A stretch of 64,000 bases of DNA from Anaerostipes hominis (ex Lee et al. 2021) (GTDB taxonomy: Bacteria; Bacillota; Clostridia; Lachnospirales; Lachnospiraceae): positions 1 to 64,000 of the forward strand of contig NZ_NQOG01000011.1 of the NCBI RefSeq assembly GCF_002270485.1. The letters run 5' to 3'. This document shows positions 9,342-12,955 of the stretch, one piece after another (positions within the stretch are counted from its first letter, which is position 1; each line of letters starts with the position of its first letter). The position numbers and the translations under genes are program-made. The notes under the pieces are model-generated. The model did not search any database, was not told the DNA's origin, and saw only the letters and a list, made by a program, of their open reading frames with translations.

Positions 9342-9524
9342 CATTTCATAGGAAAGTTCTACGACCTTCCCTATGAAATAAAAACGCTCCGCGGGTTGTG
9401 CACAGATGCGTAAGGAAATTATTTGCCTGCGGCAAATTGCATCTGGCACGCAAAGTTGTCAAGCCCCTCAAAGAGTGAGTGAGGGGTTGGGGCGTTGAAG
9501 TGGGCTTGCCCACTTTGTTCTTTT
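9342..9524. repeat. Structured dispersed repeat A, copy 1
   Basis: This is about 183 bp of non-coding sequence, strongly similar along its whole length to 15075-15253. It opens with ATTTCATAGG...CCTATGAAAT, contains the hairpin ATTTGCC-TGC-GGCAAAT (9421-9437), and ends with AAGTGGGC-TT-GCCCACTT (9498-9515). Copy 2 keeps both hairpins with compensating base changes. It starts 4 bp after a terminator T-tract and ends at the stop codon of the convergent MATE gene. No transposase or target duplication is visible. Confidence 0.85.
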
Positions 9525-10885
9525 CATCCCTGCTGTGCAGCCGATTCTTTTTGTTCCCATTTCTTGCTTTTAAAATAGCAAAAACCGGCGATGGCAGGCA
9601 GCAGGGATGACAGAGCCTGCCCCAGATAGATTCCGGGGAATCCCAGTTTAAGAGGAAATGCAAACAGCCAGCTCAGGGGCAGGCGTACGATGACGGCATC
9701 TAAAACTGCATTTACCATGGCAATATGGGAAGAACCTATACCGATTGCGAAGGAATCAAACGTATACATAACTGCATAGACCAGACTGTTTGCACCACAG
9801 CATATTCGGAGGTACAAAATCCCGCTTTTCAGGACCTCCGGACTCGAGGGGTCAAACAGCATAATGATGGGCTCAGCAAAGATCTGGACGATCAGAACAG
9901 AGAACAGCGTCACCATGACATTGAGACGGAGACCGGTCAGGGTTGTTTTTTTCACGCGCCGGATATCATTTGCACCTATATTTTGACCGGCCATGGCTGT
10001 GACTGCCTGCCCCACAGCCCAGCACGGCATGCCTGCAAAAGTATTGATTTTCAGCCCGACACCGGATGCCGCTGCGGCGGCTGTACCGAAATTGTTGAGC
10101 ATACCTGTAATCAATAGATAAGAAATATTGACGATGATCATCTGGCCGGCCGCCGGCAGACCAATTTTCATAATGACTGCCAGCTTATCGGCTTTGACCG
10201 CAAAGTTTCTGATTTTAAAATCAAAGACAAAGTTCCTGCGTTTCAGATGAATGACTGCGGTTACAAGTGAAATACCCTGGGAAAAAACTGTCGCGTAAGC
10301 CGCTCCTCTCGTTCCGATTCCCAGATAAGAGACTAAAAGCAGATCCAGTATGATATTAACGGCAGCAGCCACCGCGACAAAGTAAAGCGGACTCTTTGAA
10401 TCTCCGAGCCCCTTCATAACCGAGCAAACGGAATGATACCCAAATACAAAAACAGTTCCCCAGCAGATGATTTCCATGTATGCACAGGCATCCTGCATTG
10501 CATCGGCAGGAATTTTTAATAAAATAAAAAGCGGTCTGCAGAATAGAAGTCCAAGTATGGTTATAAAAAGCGAAGCGATAAAGGTAACTGAAAAAAGCGT
10601 TCCGGTTGTTTCCGCCTGGCCTTTTATGTCGCCGGCTCCTTTAAATTGGGCGATCAGTACAGTCCCGCCCATGGTGATTCCCAGGCAGAAAGAATTAATA
10701 ATAAAACAGAGCATGGAGGCGTTGCTTACAGCGGCAAGCCCGGCTTTTCCGACGGTCCTTCCGACCACCAGCATATCTGCGATGCTGTAAAATGATTGCA
10801 GCAGATTAGCTGACAGGAGAGGGAGTGCGAACAGGACCAGATTTTTTGTAATGTTTCCTTTGGTCAGGTTTTGTTTTTCTTTCAT
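9524..10885 (-). CDS. MATE-family efflux transporter
   Basis: A 453-residue multidrug/toxin extrusion protein with about 12 membrane segments in two similar halves. Typical N-terminal features are NLLQSFYSIADMLVVGRTVG and GLAAVSNAS. The start at ATG 10885 has AGGA 7 nt upstream; longer in-frame starts run through two terminators and are excluded. Its leader (10901-11174) holds a peptide and two tandem terminators, so expression is probably controlled by premature termination, perhaps in response to a ribosome-acting drug. It is a second, unlinked MATE gene relative to 16566-17906. Confidence 0.93.
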   Translation of the reverse strand: MKEKQNLTKGNITKNLVLFALPLLSANLLQSFYSIADMLVVGRTVGKAGLAAVSNASMLCFIINSFCLGITMGGTVLIAQFKGAGDIKGQAETTGTLFSVTFIASLFITILGLLFCRPLFILLKIPADAMQDACAYMEIICWGTVFVFGYHSVCSVMKGLGDSKSPLYFVAVAAAVNIILDLLLVSYLGIGTRGAAYATVFSQGISLVTAVIHLKRRNFVFDFKIRNFAVKADKLAVIMKIGLPAAGQMIIVNISYLLITGMLNNFGTAAAAASGVGLKINTFAGMPCWAVGQAVTAMAGQNIGANDIRRVKKTTLTGLRLNVMVTLFSVLIVQIFAEPIIMLFDPSSPEVLKSGILYLRICCGANSLVYAVMYTFDSFAIGIGSSHIAMVNAVLDAVIVRLPLSWLFAFPLKLGFPGIYLGQALSSLLPAIAGFCYFKSKKWEQKESAAQQG

Positions 10886-10900
10886 TTTCATGTTCCTTTC

Positions 10901-10939
10901 AAAAAAGCAGAGGGCATCATTAAAAGGGTGTGCCCTCTG
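10901..10939 (-). terminator. Leader terminator T2 before the MATE gene
   Basis: On the minus strand CAGAGGGCA (10939-10931) pairs with TGCCCTCTG (10916-10908) across a 14-nt loop and is followed by CTTTTTTG. It ends just before the MATE ribosome binding site. Its loop contains CACCCTTT, complementary over 8 nt to the leader peptide's Shine-Dalgarno region (11155-11162). Confidence 0.8.
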
Positions 10940-10949
10940 TTCATATAAA

Positions 10950-10991
10950 TAAAAAATACAAAAGGCAGCAGACAAAACATTGTCCGCTGCC
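10950..10991 (-). terminator. Leader terminator T1 before the MATE gene
   Basis: On the minus strand GGCAGCGGACA (10991-10981) pairs with TGTCTGCTGCC (10974-10964), an 11-bp stem with one G-U and a 6-nt loop. It is followed by TTTTGTATTTTTT. Its apex, ACAATGTTTTG (10983-10973), is perfectly complementary to 11096-11086 in the leader, so an alternative antiterminator pairing is possible. Confidence 0.85.
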
Positions 10992-11067
10992 CAGGTATGA
11001 TTTATTTCCAGCTGTGAAAAACATACAAACAAAACCTGATGTCTCCATCAGTGTTTGGCATACTTCT

Positions 11068-11148
11068 TCATAATCTTGGCTCCGTACAATGTTTTGAATC
11101 ATCAAATTGTATGGAGCTTTCATCAATACATAATTTTCCGAATATCAT
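11068..11148 (-). CDS. Leader peptide of the MATE gene (26 aa)
   Basis: A 26-codon reading frame starts at ATG 11148 with a strong AAAGGGTGA site 6 nt upstream and begins MIFGKLCIDESSIQ. It sits between a consensus promoter and two terminators. Codons 11-24 contain a near-perfect inverted repeat (GCTCCATACAAT with ATTGTACGGAGC), so ribosome position on this frame would decide whether that hairpin forms. Size, strong start site and location fit a regulatory uORF rather than a functional protein; the sequence is not enriched for one amino acid. Confidence 0.6.
   Translation of the reverse strand: MIFGKLCIDESSIQFDDSKHCTEPRL
11079..11117 (-). promoter_or_regulatory. Leader hairpin P1 with alternative antiterminator arm
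   Basis: On the leader RNA GCUCCAUACAAU (11117-11106) pairs with AUUGUACGGAGC (11090-11079), 11 of 12 pairs, inside the leader peptide frame. The 3' arm plus adjoining bases, CAAAACAUUGU (11096-11086), can pair instead with ACAAUGUUUUG at the apex of terminator T1. P1 and the antiterminator are therefore mutually exclusive. Confidence 0.65.
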
Positions 11149-11180
11149 TGTACTCACCCTTTCTTTTCGTTGATAAGATA

Positions 11181-11209
11181 ACTATAAAGGTCTCAGCTTC
11201 CTATGTCAA
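11181..11209 (-). promoter_or_regulatory. Promoter of the MATE leader transcript
   Basis: On the minus strand TTGACA (11209-11204), a 17-nt spacer and TATAGT (11186-11181) form a near-consensus promoter. Transcription would begin near 11174, giving a leader of about 290 nt before the MATE start codon. Confidence 0.8.
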
Positions 11210-11226
11210 GCACTTCATAAATATGT

Positions 11227-12924
11227 CTAAAGCTTTCTGCAGCGGTTGAACGCCGCATGGATCTCCTGCCGTCTCGGCATTGCCAGATTAGATCTCACAT
11301 ATCCGCTGTCCAGTATCGCCGCAAGCCCTTTGGCGTCGATGAGCGCTAAAAGTTCCTCTGCGATTTGGCGCAGGTCTTTTCTGCCGTCGATCAGATGCAG
11401 CTGGGCATAAAGCAGAGCATAGGCGAGAGCTGTTGTCTGCTCAGAGTCACAGATCTGTTCTGCATACCGCAGGTCCACAGTCTCTTTGTTGATCTGGAAT
11501 GCGTCTTTTCCGAGGGTTTTTAATTTGTTCCGGCTGTTTTTCAGGGACGGACGGCTGGGGTTTACAACACGGTGAAAAGAAGGGCTGTCCGGCTTTTCTT
11601 TCGGAATTGTTACCGGCGGAAAGGCTTTGGACTCCTCTTTTGCAAAGTCTGTGATCTCCCTCGGCACATAGCGGTCCATCTGTAAAATGTGGTCGGCAAC
11701 CTGGAAATAAGCCCCGGAGCTTCCTGCCACAATGACGGAAGAAATACCGTGGTCTTCATACAGTCCCCGGACCCGTTCAATAAACGGAGTAATAGGCTCA
11801 TGATCCCTGTGGACCACTCTCTGCATCAGTTCGTCACGAATCATAAAGTTGGTGGCGCTGGTGTCTTCATCGATGAGGAAAAGAGAAGTTCCGGCCTCCA
11901 TACTCTCGATCACATTGGCCGCCTGGGAGGTGCTGCCGCTGGCGTCTTCAGTGGAGAAAGAAACCGTATCTTTTCCGTTTGGAAGATTATTGATAAACAG
12001 GGAAATATCTGTGTTTTTTATGCTGCGCCCGTCCTCTGCGCGGAGTTTTACCGCCGTGTCATCGGTGATGACATATTCACGGCCGTCATTTCTTATATGG
12101 TTGTAAACACCTAATTCCAATGCTTTCAGCAGTGTTGATTTTCCATGATAGCCCCCGCCTACGATCAAGGTAATGCCTTTTGGTATTCCCATGCCGGAGA
12201 GGGGACCGTGATGAGGAAGATTTAATGTGACTTTCAGGGAGTCCGGCGAATGGAAAGCCACAGCCTGCCTCATCGGACGCGGAGATACCCCGCTCTCCCT
12301 TGGGAGGACAGAACCATCTGCTACAAAAGCACAGAGATTCAGCTTCGGAAGCTGGTCACGAATATATTTTTGATCTTCAGCAAGACTGATCACATCTTCG
12401 ACGGCGCCTACGTTAAGCTTCTTATAATAGAAGGAAGACAATACACAGTCGGGAAGAAAGTCAAACAGGATTTTGATCAGTTCAAATGCGGCGATGGTCC
12501 GGCCCCTGGCAGGAAATCCGATCTCAAAATGGACAGAGATATCACCGGACTCGGGATGGATGGACAGGGCGGTCCGCTCTAAAATCTCCTGCCCGCATCT
12601 ACTGACAGAAATCAGGCCGCTCTTGCCTGAACCCTTTGCCTTAAAATTATAGGATTCCAGTTTCTTTCCGAAAACGCGGGTCAGATAGTCCTGAAGTGCG
12701 GTCCGCTTATGGGGCTGGTCAAACAGTTCTAAAGGGAATCCGGCTTTTATGCCGGGGATGCTGAGGCTTACTTTGGAGGGAGAGGCAAAGGGATCTCCCT
12801 GTACATGGTCAATATGCAGGGTATAGCCGCCGAACCGGTAACTCCCCCTGGTGTCTTTATAGGCAGGATAGCCTTTATGGTCGATACGCTCTAACAGCGA
12901 TCTTAAATCATCTGAAGTCTTCAT
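11227..12924 (-). CDS. ABC-class P-loop ATPase, predicted (COG3044 type)
   Basis: A soluble protein of 565 residues that resembles the 'predicted ATPase of the ABC class' family. The Walker A variant is GGGYHGKSTLLKALE near residue 255. LFLIDEDTSATNFMIRD near residue 350 is the Walker B region, and VIAGSSGAYFQVADHILQMD follows, typical of the family. There is no membrane domain, and no cognate permease nearby. ATG 12924 is chosen because AAAGGTGA lies 8 nt upstream. The family's function is unknown. The gene ends 17 bp before the promoter of the MATE leader on the same strand. Confidence 0.88.
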   Translation of the reverse strand: MKTSDDLRSLLERIDHKGYPAYKDTRGSYRFGGYTLHIDHVQGDPFASPSKVSLSIPGIKAGFPLELFDQPHKRTALQDYLTRVFGKKLESYNFKAKGSGKSGLISVSRCGQEILERTALSIHPESGDISVHFEIGFPARGRTIAAFELIKILFDFLPDCVLSSFYYKKLNVGAVEDVISLAEDQKYIRDQLPKLNLCAFVADGSVLPRESGVSPRPMRQAVAFHSPDSLKVTLNLPHHGPLSGMGIPKGITLIVGGGYHGKSTLLKALELGVYNHIRNDGREYVITDDTAVKLRAEDGRSIKNTDISLFINNLPNGKDTVSFSTEDASGSTSQAANVIESMEAGTSLFLIDEDTSATNFMIRDELMQRVVHRDHEPITPFIERVRGLYEDHGISSVIVAGSSGAYFQVADHILQMDRYVPREITDFAKEESKAFPPVTIPKEKPDSPSFHRVVNPSRPSLKNSRNKLKTLGKDAFQINKETVDLRYAEQICDSEQTTALAYALLYAQLHLIDGRKDLRQIAEELLALIDAKGLAAILDSGYVRSNLAMPRRQEIHAAFNRCRKL

Positions 12925-12955
12925 ATGTTCTATCACCTTTCAAAATATGAGTTTT

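Follow-up and report, generated by a model that had tools for sequence, protein, structure and literature searches.

A candidate ribosome-mediated attenuator with two terminators upstream of a MATE efflux gene in Anaerostipes hominis, related to uup RNA

INTRODUCTION

In the passages of PMC9226507 that describe it, the vmlR leader of Bacillus subtilis holds its upstream open reading frame (uORF) within an anti-antiterminator hairpin, followed by an antiterminator, an intrinsic terminator and pause sites; antitermination is predicted there to open a further hairpin downstream as well, the uORF is three codons long (MIN), and the last hairpin hides the Shine–Dalgarno (SD) sequence. The clostridial antibiotic resistance (ARE) ABC-F gene cplR of Clostridioides difficile is reported to have a leader with a uORF (MR[I/M]), a terminator whose stem also hides the SD, and induction by drugs (PMC10201436). 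Before the ABC-F gene msrD, a drug-stalled ribosome prevents the terminator by covering its first half, on a uORF printed as MYLIFM (PMC10314930). Here we describe a leader found in a 64,000-nucleotide (nt) stretch of Anaerostipes hominis DNA (NCBI RefSeq contig NZ_NQOG01000011.1, positions 1 to 64,000; hereafter ‘the window’). It lies on the minus strand between an ABC_ATPase-family gene ending at 11227 and a gene for a MATE family efflux transporter, and is, with a probability that we put at about 0.75, a drug-responsive, ribosome-mediated transcription attenuator with two terminators.

Set against vmlR by description rather than by sequence, the A. hominis leader shares the layout but has a longer uORF with a conserved peptide front, and a second terminator where vmlR has its SD-hiding hairpin. 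With cplR it has the uORF and terminator in common; its uORF is unlike either MR[I/M] or MYLIFM and, in contrast to msrD, the stalled ribosome would here free an arm ~100 nt upstream of the first terminator (T1). By analogy, we see the leader as working like the vmlR- and msrD-type attenuators, with different uORFs. A further relative is the uup RNA (Rfam RF03060), described as a motif without further evidence of riboswitch function (PMC11477304): it shares with our leader family a hairpin of the same type (P1) and the same conserved strand, whereas the passages of PMC11477304 on this RNA mention no uORF, antiterminator or terminator. A survey of the literature on uup RNA and on ABC-F or MATE attenuation, with partial coverage at the level of titles and abstract openings, did not find the mechanism described; we do not claim that it is absent from print.

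RESULTS

Layout of the MATE leader and a proposed switch

Reading the minus strand 5' to 3', the leader opens with a promoter (TTGACA-17-TATAGT, 11181..11209; 11/12 consensus matches) and the SD of the uORF (AAAGAAAGGG, 11157..11166, by sequence reading), followed by the uORF itself; 26 codons plus stop at 11068..11148 (product MIFGKLCIDESSIQFDDSKHCTEPRL), read from the sequence and from relatives. Codons 3–8, FGKLCI (11125..11142; consensus FGKFCI), form the proposed sensor part, on the grounds of protein-level conservation in a codon test that spanned codons 3–10. The back of the uORF runs through hairpin P1, the anti-antiterminator (11079..11117; arms 11117-11106 and 11090-11079), identified by fold, Rfam score and covariation, and the 3' side of P1 holds the antiterminator arm CAAAACATTGT (11086..11096), assigned from pairing tests against T1. 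Below this is a short hairpin, CTGATG-GAGA-CATCAG, with a T-rich stretch, TTGTTTG (11020..11051), which a terminator scan and a pause-motif count mark as a possible pause site. T1 (10963..10992; scan and covariation) presents ACAATGTTTTG (10983-10973) at its apex, where it pairs with the antiterminator arm; its 3' end and U-tract, GCCTTTTGT (10958..10966), match the 5' arm of the second terminator (T2) and are proposed, from pairing energies and folding, as a second antiterminator arm. T2 (CAGAGGGC...GCCCTCTG plus U-tract, 10901..10939; sequence reading and minimum-energy fold) is followed by the MATE gene (9524..10891; TIGR00797 209 bits, PF01554 160 bits), which has in-frame ATGs at 10891 and 10885; protein searches used 9524-10885.

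Promoter, SD, uORF, P1, T1, T2 and MATE start had all been named in a preliminary description of the locus, and each lies where it was placed. The minimum-energy fold (299 nt) contains P1, T1 and T2 (z = -6.0; 0/200 shuffles as stable). Both terminators are strong hairpins; the terminator scan picked T1 (10992-10963) as terminator-like, together with the short hairpin at 11051-11036, and missed T2, though that is present in the fold. The perfect 11-nt complementarity between the 3' side of P1 and the T1 apex, also part of that description, is there and is beyond chance, complements of 11 nt separated by 60 nt or more occurring in 2/300 mononucleotide shuffles.

We propose that, without drug, ribosomes would traverse the uORF and P1 would form, hiding its 3' arm; T1 would fold and transcription would stop, with T2 catching leak-through past T1. 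A drug-bound ribosome would stall with its P site at about codons 7–14, most probably where the conserved FGKFCI-type segment ends, and would shield the GC-rich half of P1's 5' arm. Once released, the 3' arm of P1, AAAACAUUGU, would pair with the emerging T1 apex and block T1, and the unused T1 3' end and U-tract would pair with the T2 5' arm—disarming T2 and allowing the MATE gene to be transcribed. Comparison speaks for the peptide selection at the uORF front, for P1, for the pairing of its 3' side with T1 and for the linkage to resistance-type genes; modelling speaks for where switching occurs and for a relay to T2. Translation of the uORF itself, an antibiotic as the signal (macrolide-like by analogy) and a kinetic switch are what we infer.

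A family of related leaders

Searching the organism's own genome with the leader returned a second T1-like hairpin, part of a parallel leader before an ABC-F gene of the ribosome-protection type (G000:C44:63204-63448; L002, L003), with its own uORF (MGLYRSDQPRRRVNSVQFRPMKHCAEYGGFYPL), a uup-type P1, T1 and T2. Among 11 genomes of the genus, the pump protein found matches in 6 at E 1e-60 or better: the sole close orthologue beyond the window's own (68% identity, G006) also has the leader (L009), and a simple motif search of the loci of four matches at 30–33% identity detected no P1 and no T1 apex.

Scanning named genomes with a pattern yielded 71 stretches, of which 65 are family-type by uORF and context; the remaining six (L013, L034, L040, L056, L064, L065), without a family-type uORF, were set aside as chance matches. 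Covariance models R1 and R2, built on the SD, uORF and P1 of the pattern-scan leaders and without T1, matched in 10/397 genomes of the bacterial family and 5/392 of the order (R1), and in 16/397 of the family and 11/391 of the class (R2); RF03060 matched in 4/398 genomes of the phylum, and a P1 pattern on 4 contigs of a viral collection. Each genome count includes the window's genome, and scans of more than 40 genomes used stricter filters, with weak matches lost. The resulting set holds 116 loci, 94 of them distinct and the window included, some being one genome present in two collections; L107 is a weak R2 match whose T1 was set by hand. An in-frame start upstream of P1 was found by script at 109 of the 116 loci and by eye at the other seven.

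Searches of plasmids and phages with two leaders gave no match, the MATE-class P1 pattern had none among viral contigs, and the matches that the MATE protein gave on plasmids all lie under 60% identity. The same leader accompanies a second MATE group (MNE.RIKILKEENI; L115–L118), also present on contigs filed as viral (L129, L131, L132; IMG/VR), and carriage on mobile elements is possible. One genome holds three leaders (L085, L097, L108), before MATE, ABC-F and Mef-like MFS genes.

Conservation of the uORF as peptide and as RNA

Across 19 distinct MATE-class uORFs, FGKFCI and the next two codons have a ratio of non-synonymous to synonymous change (pN/pS) of 0.20 in the reading frame, compared with 3.05 and 1.02 when the other two frames are taken, and third positions of the segment are the most variable (52/20000 column permutations as good); the P1/KHC part of the uORF gives no codon signal (10633/20000 permutations). 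The codon ratio for the uORFs of the ABC-F set, 0.56, is rough, two uORF lengths being mixed. The uORF stops inside P1 in L106, L119 and L120, and crosses P1 out of the KHC frame in L112 and L128, the upstream start being kept in all of these. Since the codons of the front are under selection and the back can be stopped or shifted, we read the front as peptide and the back as serving as RNA: judged from the alignments, the uORF front (FGKLCI in the window) is conserved as protein and the P1/KHC part as RNA. The window thus has, before a MATE gene of resistance type, a uORF under codon-level selection that is presumably translated.

The 26 MATE-class loci carry Phe6/Ile8 (17), Phe7/Ile9 (6), Leu6/Ile8 (2, the window and one other) or Val6/Ile8 (1), and many ABC-F-class uORFs have RKKK-like stretches at the place matching FGKFCI. 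ErmCL has isoleucine, not lysine, before its Phe7, and ermC is controlled at translation. The ErmCL peptide is reported to arrest with Phe7 and Ile9 in the P site (PMC13148051), and Arg/Lys-X-Arg/Lys is among the known motifs for stalling by ketolides (PMC8298421). The likeness between ErmCL and the Phe7/Ile9 or Phe6/Ile8 of MATE-class uORFs is short; the window has Leu6/Ile8, and control here would be at transcription.

Pairing of P1 with the first terminator

In 36 of the 94 distinct leaders, chosen by eye for diversity, 91% of 432 P1 cells are paired and 6/12 pairs show changes on both sides. T1 was sought at 46 loci, window included, that had been retrieved without use of T1: a script found it in 43 (in L107 via a hand-set anchor), L096 has T1 by eye with a mismatch, and none was found in L106 and L120. 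The T1 stem is paired in 96.9% of 359 cells, 48 with both-side changes.

The 3' arm of P1 and the T1 apex were compared in 33 of these 43 leaders, near-identical ones having been dropped and the window kept. They pair in 98.8% of 329 cells, with both-side changes in 4/10 pairs (8 cells), while partners slid by 1–3 columns pair in 25–69%; own partners beat all 20000 permutations, in which relatedness is not controlled. G-C replaces A-U in the T1 loop at one place in L091, L126 and L127 and at another in L119 and L126, changes best explained by pairing with P1 because the T1 stem places no constraint on loop bases. The both-side change of L121 is unreliable, this leader being misaligned there; it pairs in its own register.

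A separate pairing, between the uORF start and the P1 3' arm (RNAalifold, alignment A1; also carried in the structure of model R1), was set aside: 101/104 cells pair, but swapped pairs equal this in 4543/20000. The uORF start region is a possible third partner of the arm.

Modelled switching along the uORF

We folded transcripts ending just after the T1 apex and left unpaired a ribosome footprint that spans -15 to +15 relative to the P-site codon. In the window, the antiterminator forms at 0.36 with no ribosome, 0.1 to 0.6 with the P site at codons 1–6, 0.9 at codons 7–14, 0.4 at codon 15 and 0.0 at codons 16–26; the onset of this switching window coincides with the end of FGKFCI. The median antiterminator rises at P-site codons 7–13 in 14 MATE-class leaders (codons numbered from the start of the window's uORF) and 11–17 in 16 others, all of them hand-picked, and among 66 leaders it exceeds 0.5 when stalled in 54, with P1 above 0.5 without a ribosome in 48. 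The earlier suggestion that ribosome stalling early in the uORF opens P1 and frees the arm that attacks T1 is therefore supported by covariation and by the footprint model, which places switching in the window at codons 7–14, not 2–6. Between P1 and T1, the NusG pause motif of the vmlR work, TTNTTT (PMC9226507), is present in 56/89 distinct stretches against 28 expected and a maximum of 40 in 300 mononucleotide shuffles; a simple, T-rich motif.

The same profile bears on whether arrest would need to be peptide-specific. A general sensor of slowed translation would differ from the attenuator proposed above in its sensing step only; it would sit comfortably with a predicted switching window seven to eight codons wide, and defects in ribosome assembly likewise induce vmlR (PMC9226507). 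Peptide conservation nevertheless ends where the switching window begins, which points to a specific arrest, and we consider a general sensor unlikely, if the strongest of the alternatives.

The second terminator

In the window, the T1 3' end with its U-tract, GCCUUUUGU, is complementary to the T2 5' arm. Over 47 leaders, the mean energy of T1 tail and T2 arm is -13.8 kcal/mol for own partners, -12.7 for swapped partners and -7.2 for shuffled tails, the own mean being equalled in 0/20000 permutations (rows for L055, L103, L108, L121 and L126, in which T2 is mis-detected, are kept in these counts); the swapped energy is also low because purine-rich arms meet U-tracts, so that part of the complementarity is expected. 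With the T1 antiterminator enforced and only the T2 5' arm out, expected pairs between tail and arm go from a median of 7.0 to 11.8 (24/27 leaders tried), and in the window from 0.0 to 11.4, with 10.2 even when T2 is complete. This modelling suggests that opening T1 also disarms T2; a relay that is well supported for the window and plausible for the family.

The preliminary description had placed the second antiterminator elsewhere, in an 8-nt match between the uORF SD and the T2 loop. That match is real as sequence, but it is not a conserved feature and is common by chance: at least one 8-nt match appears in 126/300 shuffles of the leader, the longest perfect match, 8 nt in the window, is at most 7 nt in the other 17 of the 18 distinct MATE-class leaders with a T2-like hairpin, and swapped partners do equally well or better in 9626/10000 permutations. 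We replace it with the better conserved partner of T2, T1's own 3' tail; the observation behind that description stands, as does its main interpretation in refined form.

Relation to uup RNA

The window contains an RF03060-type P1 hairpin with the conserved CATTGT-type 3' strand (alignment A3). Against RF03060 itself, P1 (11079-11121, minus strand) scores 17.9 bits, below the cut-off of 36.8, and an Rfam scan at the window leader found no family at or above cut-off. The own-genome ABC-F leader passes at 54.8 bits, the only such leader there to do so, and of 10 loci searched seven pass (L094, L104, L108, L115, L119, L120, L121), the three that fail (L081, L089, L091) being MATE-class. By the model's threshold, the window leader is not a member of RF03060, though it is related; in its relatives, P1 is the orphan uup RNA of Rfam.

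Just after the uORF, 63 of the 64 distinct non-MATE-class leaders (e.g. L010, L094, L104, L115) have, by raw count, a TTCATCGG-like segment complementary to the P1 loop (CGATGAA); a few leaders have matching changes, with a P1 loop of CGGTGAA alongside TTCACCGG. Segment and loop, next to the antiterminator arm, are candidates for an H-type pseudoknot or an alternative helix. The partner segment is present in 0/24 distinct MATE-class leaders.

It is this candidate pseudoknot in most relatives, along with the filing of uup RNA as a cis-regulatory motif, that would favour P1 as a ligand-binding riboswitch with the uORF incidental. The MATE-class leaders keep P1 without the partner, however, and P1, a simple hairpin, has a conserved strand that pairing with T1 accounts for; the uORF front is under protein-level selection, and its start lies upstream of P1 at the loci as counted above. 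We regard a riboswitch as improbable.

Genes downstream of the leaders

By best tblastn match, the genes directly downstream of the 116 loci are ABC-F (70), MATE (34), Vat-like (2, one genome seen twice), Mef-like MFS (2), MBL-fold (2) or unassigned (6), the names Vat and Mef resting on NCBIfam scores below curated cut-offs. The 34 MATE genes divide 26, 7 and 1 by the nearest of three reference groups. Two ABC-F proteins were tested: against the general ABC-F model (cut-off 380 bits) one passes at 399.8 and one fails at 345, and against the CplR model (cut-off 780) the two score 183 and 231 bits. From their sequences, the genes under such leaders look mostly like resistance to ribosome-targeting drugs (ABC-F, Vat, Mef-like).

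Five of the six loci without an assigned gene have at most 400 bases downstream; at the sixth, L020, a MATE-class leader runs into a mobile-element-like region in which no pump gene was found. At L050 and L087 (same genome), a MATE-class uORF and P1 precede a gene for a Vat-like streptogramin A acetyltransferase, and T2 was not detected; apparently the sensor has here been transferred to another resistance gene. At L106 and L120, P1 and a shortened uORF precede an MBL-fold hydrolase gene with no T1 found, and regulation there, if any, must differ from the T1-based switch. The gene upstream of the window leader (11227-12936, minus strand) encodes a PF09818/PF20446 ABC-class ATPase.

The nature of these genes is one of several points that make it very improbable that the uORF senses amino acid starvation, through its Cys, Ile or His codons, in place of a drug. 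Cys and Ile codons (7 and 8) do lie at the edge of the switching window, but the window uORF is without a run of one codon, and a codon run for the regulated amino acid, as in a classical amino acid attenuator, is absent from the uORF peptides read. Other classes carry different residues, often RKKK-like, at the matching place; a ribosome stalled at KHC would hide the antiterminator arm (0.0 at window codons 19–21); and the downstream genes are resistance-type, not biosynthetic. Least credible of all is that T1 and T2, strong hairpins though both are, serve as constitutive insulating terminators for the pump with the matches as mere decoration, given that a dedicated promoter and uORF precede them and that the T1 loop covaries with P1.

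DISCUSSION

We read the A. hominis leader as a drug-responsive attenuator; the window holds a mutually exclusive anti-antiterminator, antiterminator and intrinsic terminator, with switching between them seen in modelling and not at equilibrium. A number of observations weigh against this reading. Equilibrium folding with a complete T1 prefers T1 (median antiterminator 0.00; at most 0.01 in the leaders listed individually), and the switch must therefore be kinetic, acting during transcription. The window's antiterminator already reaches 0.36 without a ribosome and 0.6 with one on codon 1; in L007, L021, L075 and L127 it stands at 0.79–0.97 without a ribosome, the own-genome ABC-F leader L002 reaches at most 0.5, and first-half switching is confined to codon 7 in L032 and L110 and to codons 7–9 in L081. 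There is, moreover, a second switching window for ribosomes that have just passed the antiterminator arm and whose footprint takes in no more of P1 than its base (medians at P-site distances of 22 and 25 nt past the anchor base: MATE-class 0.97 and 0.76, others 0.18 and 0.5). In the window leader, it appears (1.0) only when the P site holds the stop codon; on longer uORFs, ribosomes have to pass through it.

The RNA comparisons add further points. Pairing of the P1 3' arm with T1 is poor in L090, L112 and L128, and L106 and L120 are those in which no T1 was found. For the relay, pairing of T1 tail and T2 arm is mostly lost with T2 complete (median 1.1 over leaders), and the two are part-paired already without the T1 antiterminator (median 7.0 versus 11.8). 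The script saw no T2-like hairpin in 6/26 MATE-class loci (L020, L022, L050, L055, L087, L091), that of L022 being found in a separate terminator survey despite the script miss.

As to the inducer, something macrolide-like is our best guess by analogy, though we rate it less likely than not; the Vat case would be equally consistent with a streptogramin or some other drug that acts on the peptidyl transferase centre.

More broadly, uup RNA and its MATE-class cousin may form one antibiotic-sensor family, in which an exchangeable arrest peptide would drive a common RNA switch, one stall would disarm two serial terminators, the body of the first being the antiterminator of the second, and one genome would place a MATE pump, an ABC-F protector and a Mef-like pump under joint control; we see the chances of this wider picture as evenly balanced. 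It gives a testable function to a catalogued RNA of unexplained role (uup), brings ABC-F, MATE, Mef-like MFS and Vat-like genes of gut Clostridia under a single switch based on ribosome stalling, and adds the idea of a relay between two terminators. If true, common gut bacteria exposed to ribosome-targeting drugs would switch on several kinds of resistance simultaneously, and the leader could readily serve as a reporter to show which peptide is stalled by which drugs.

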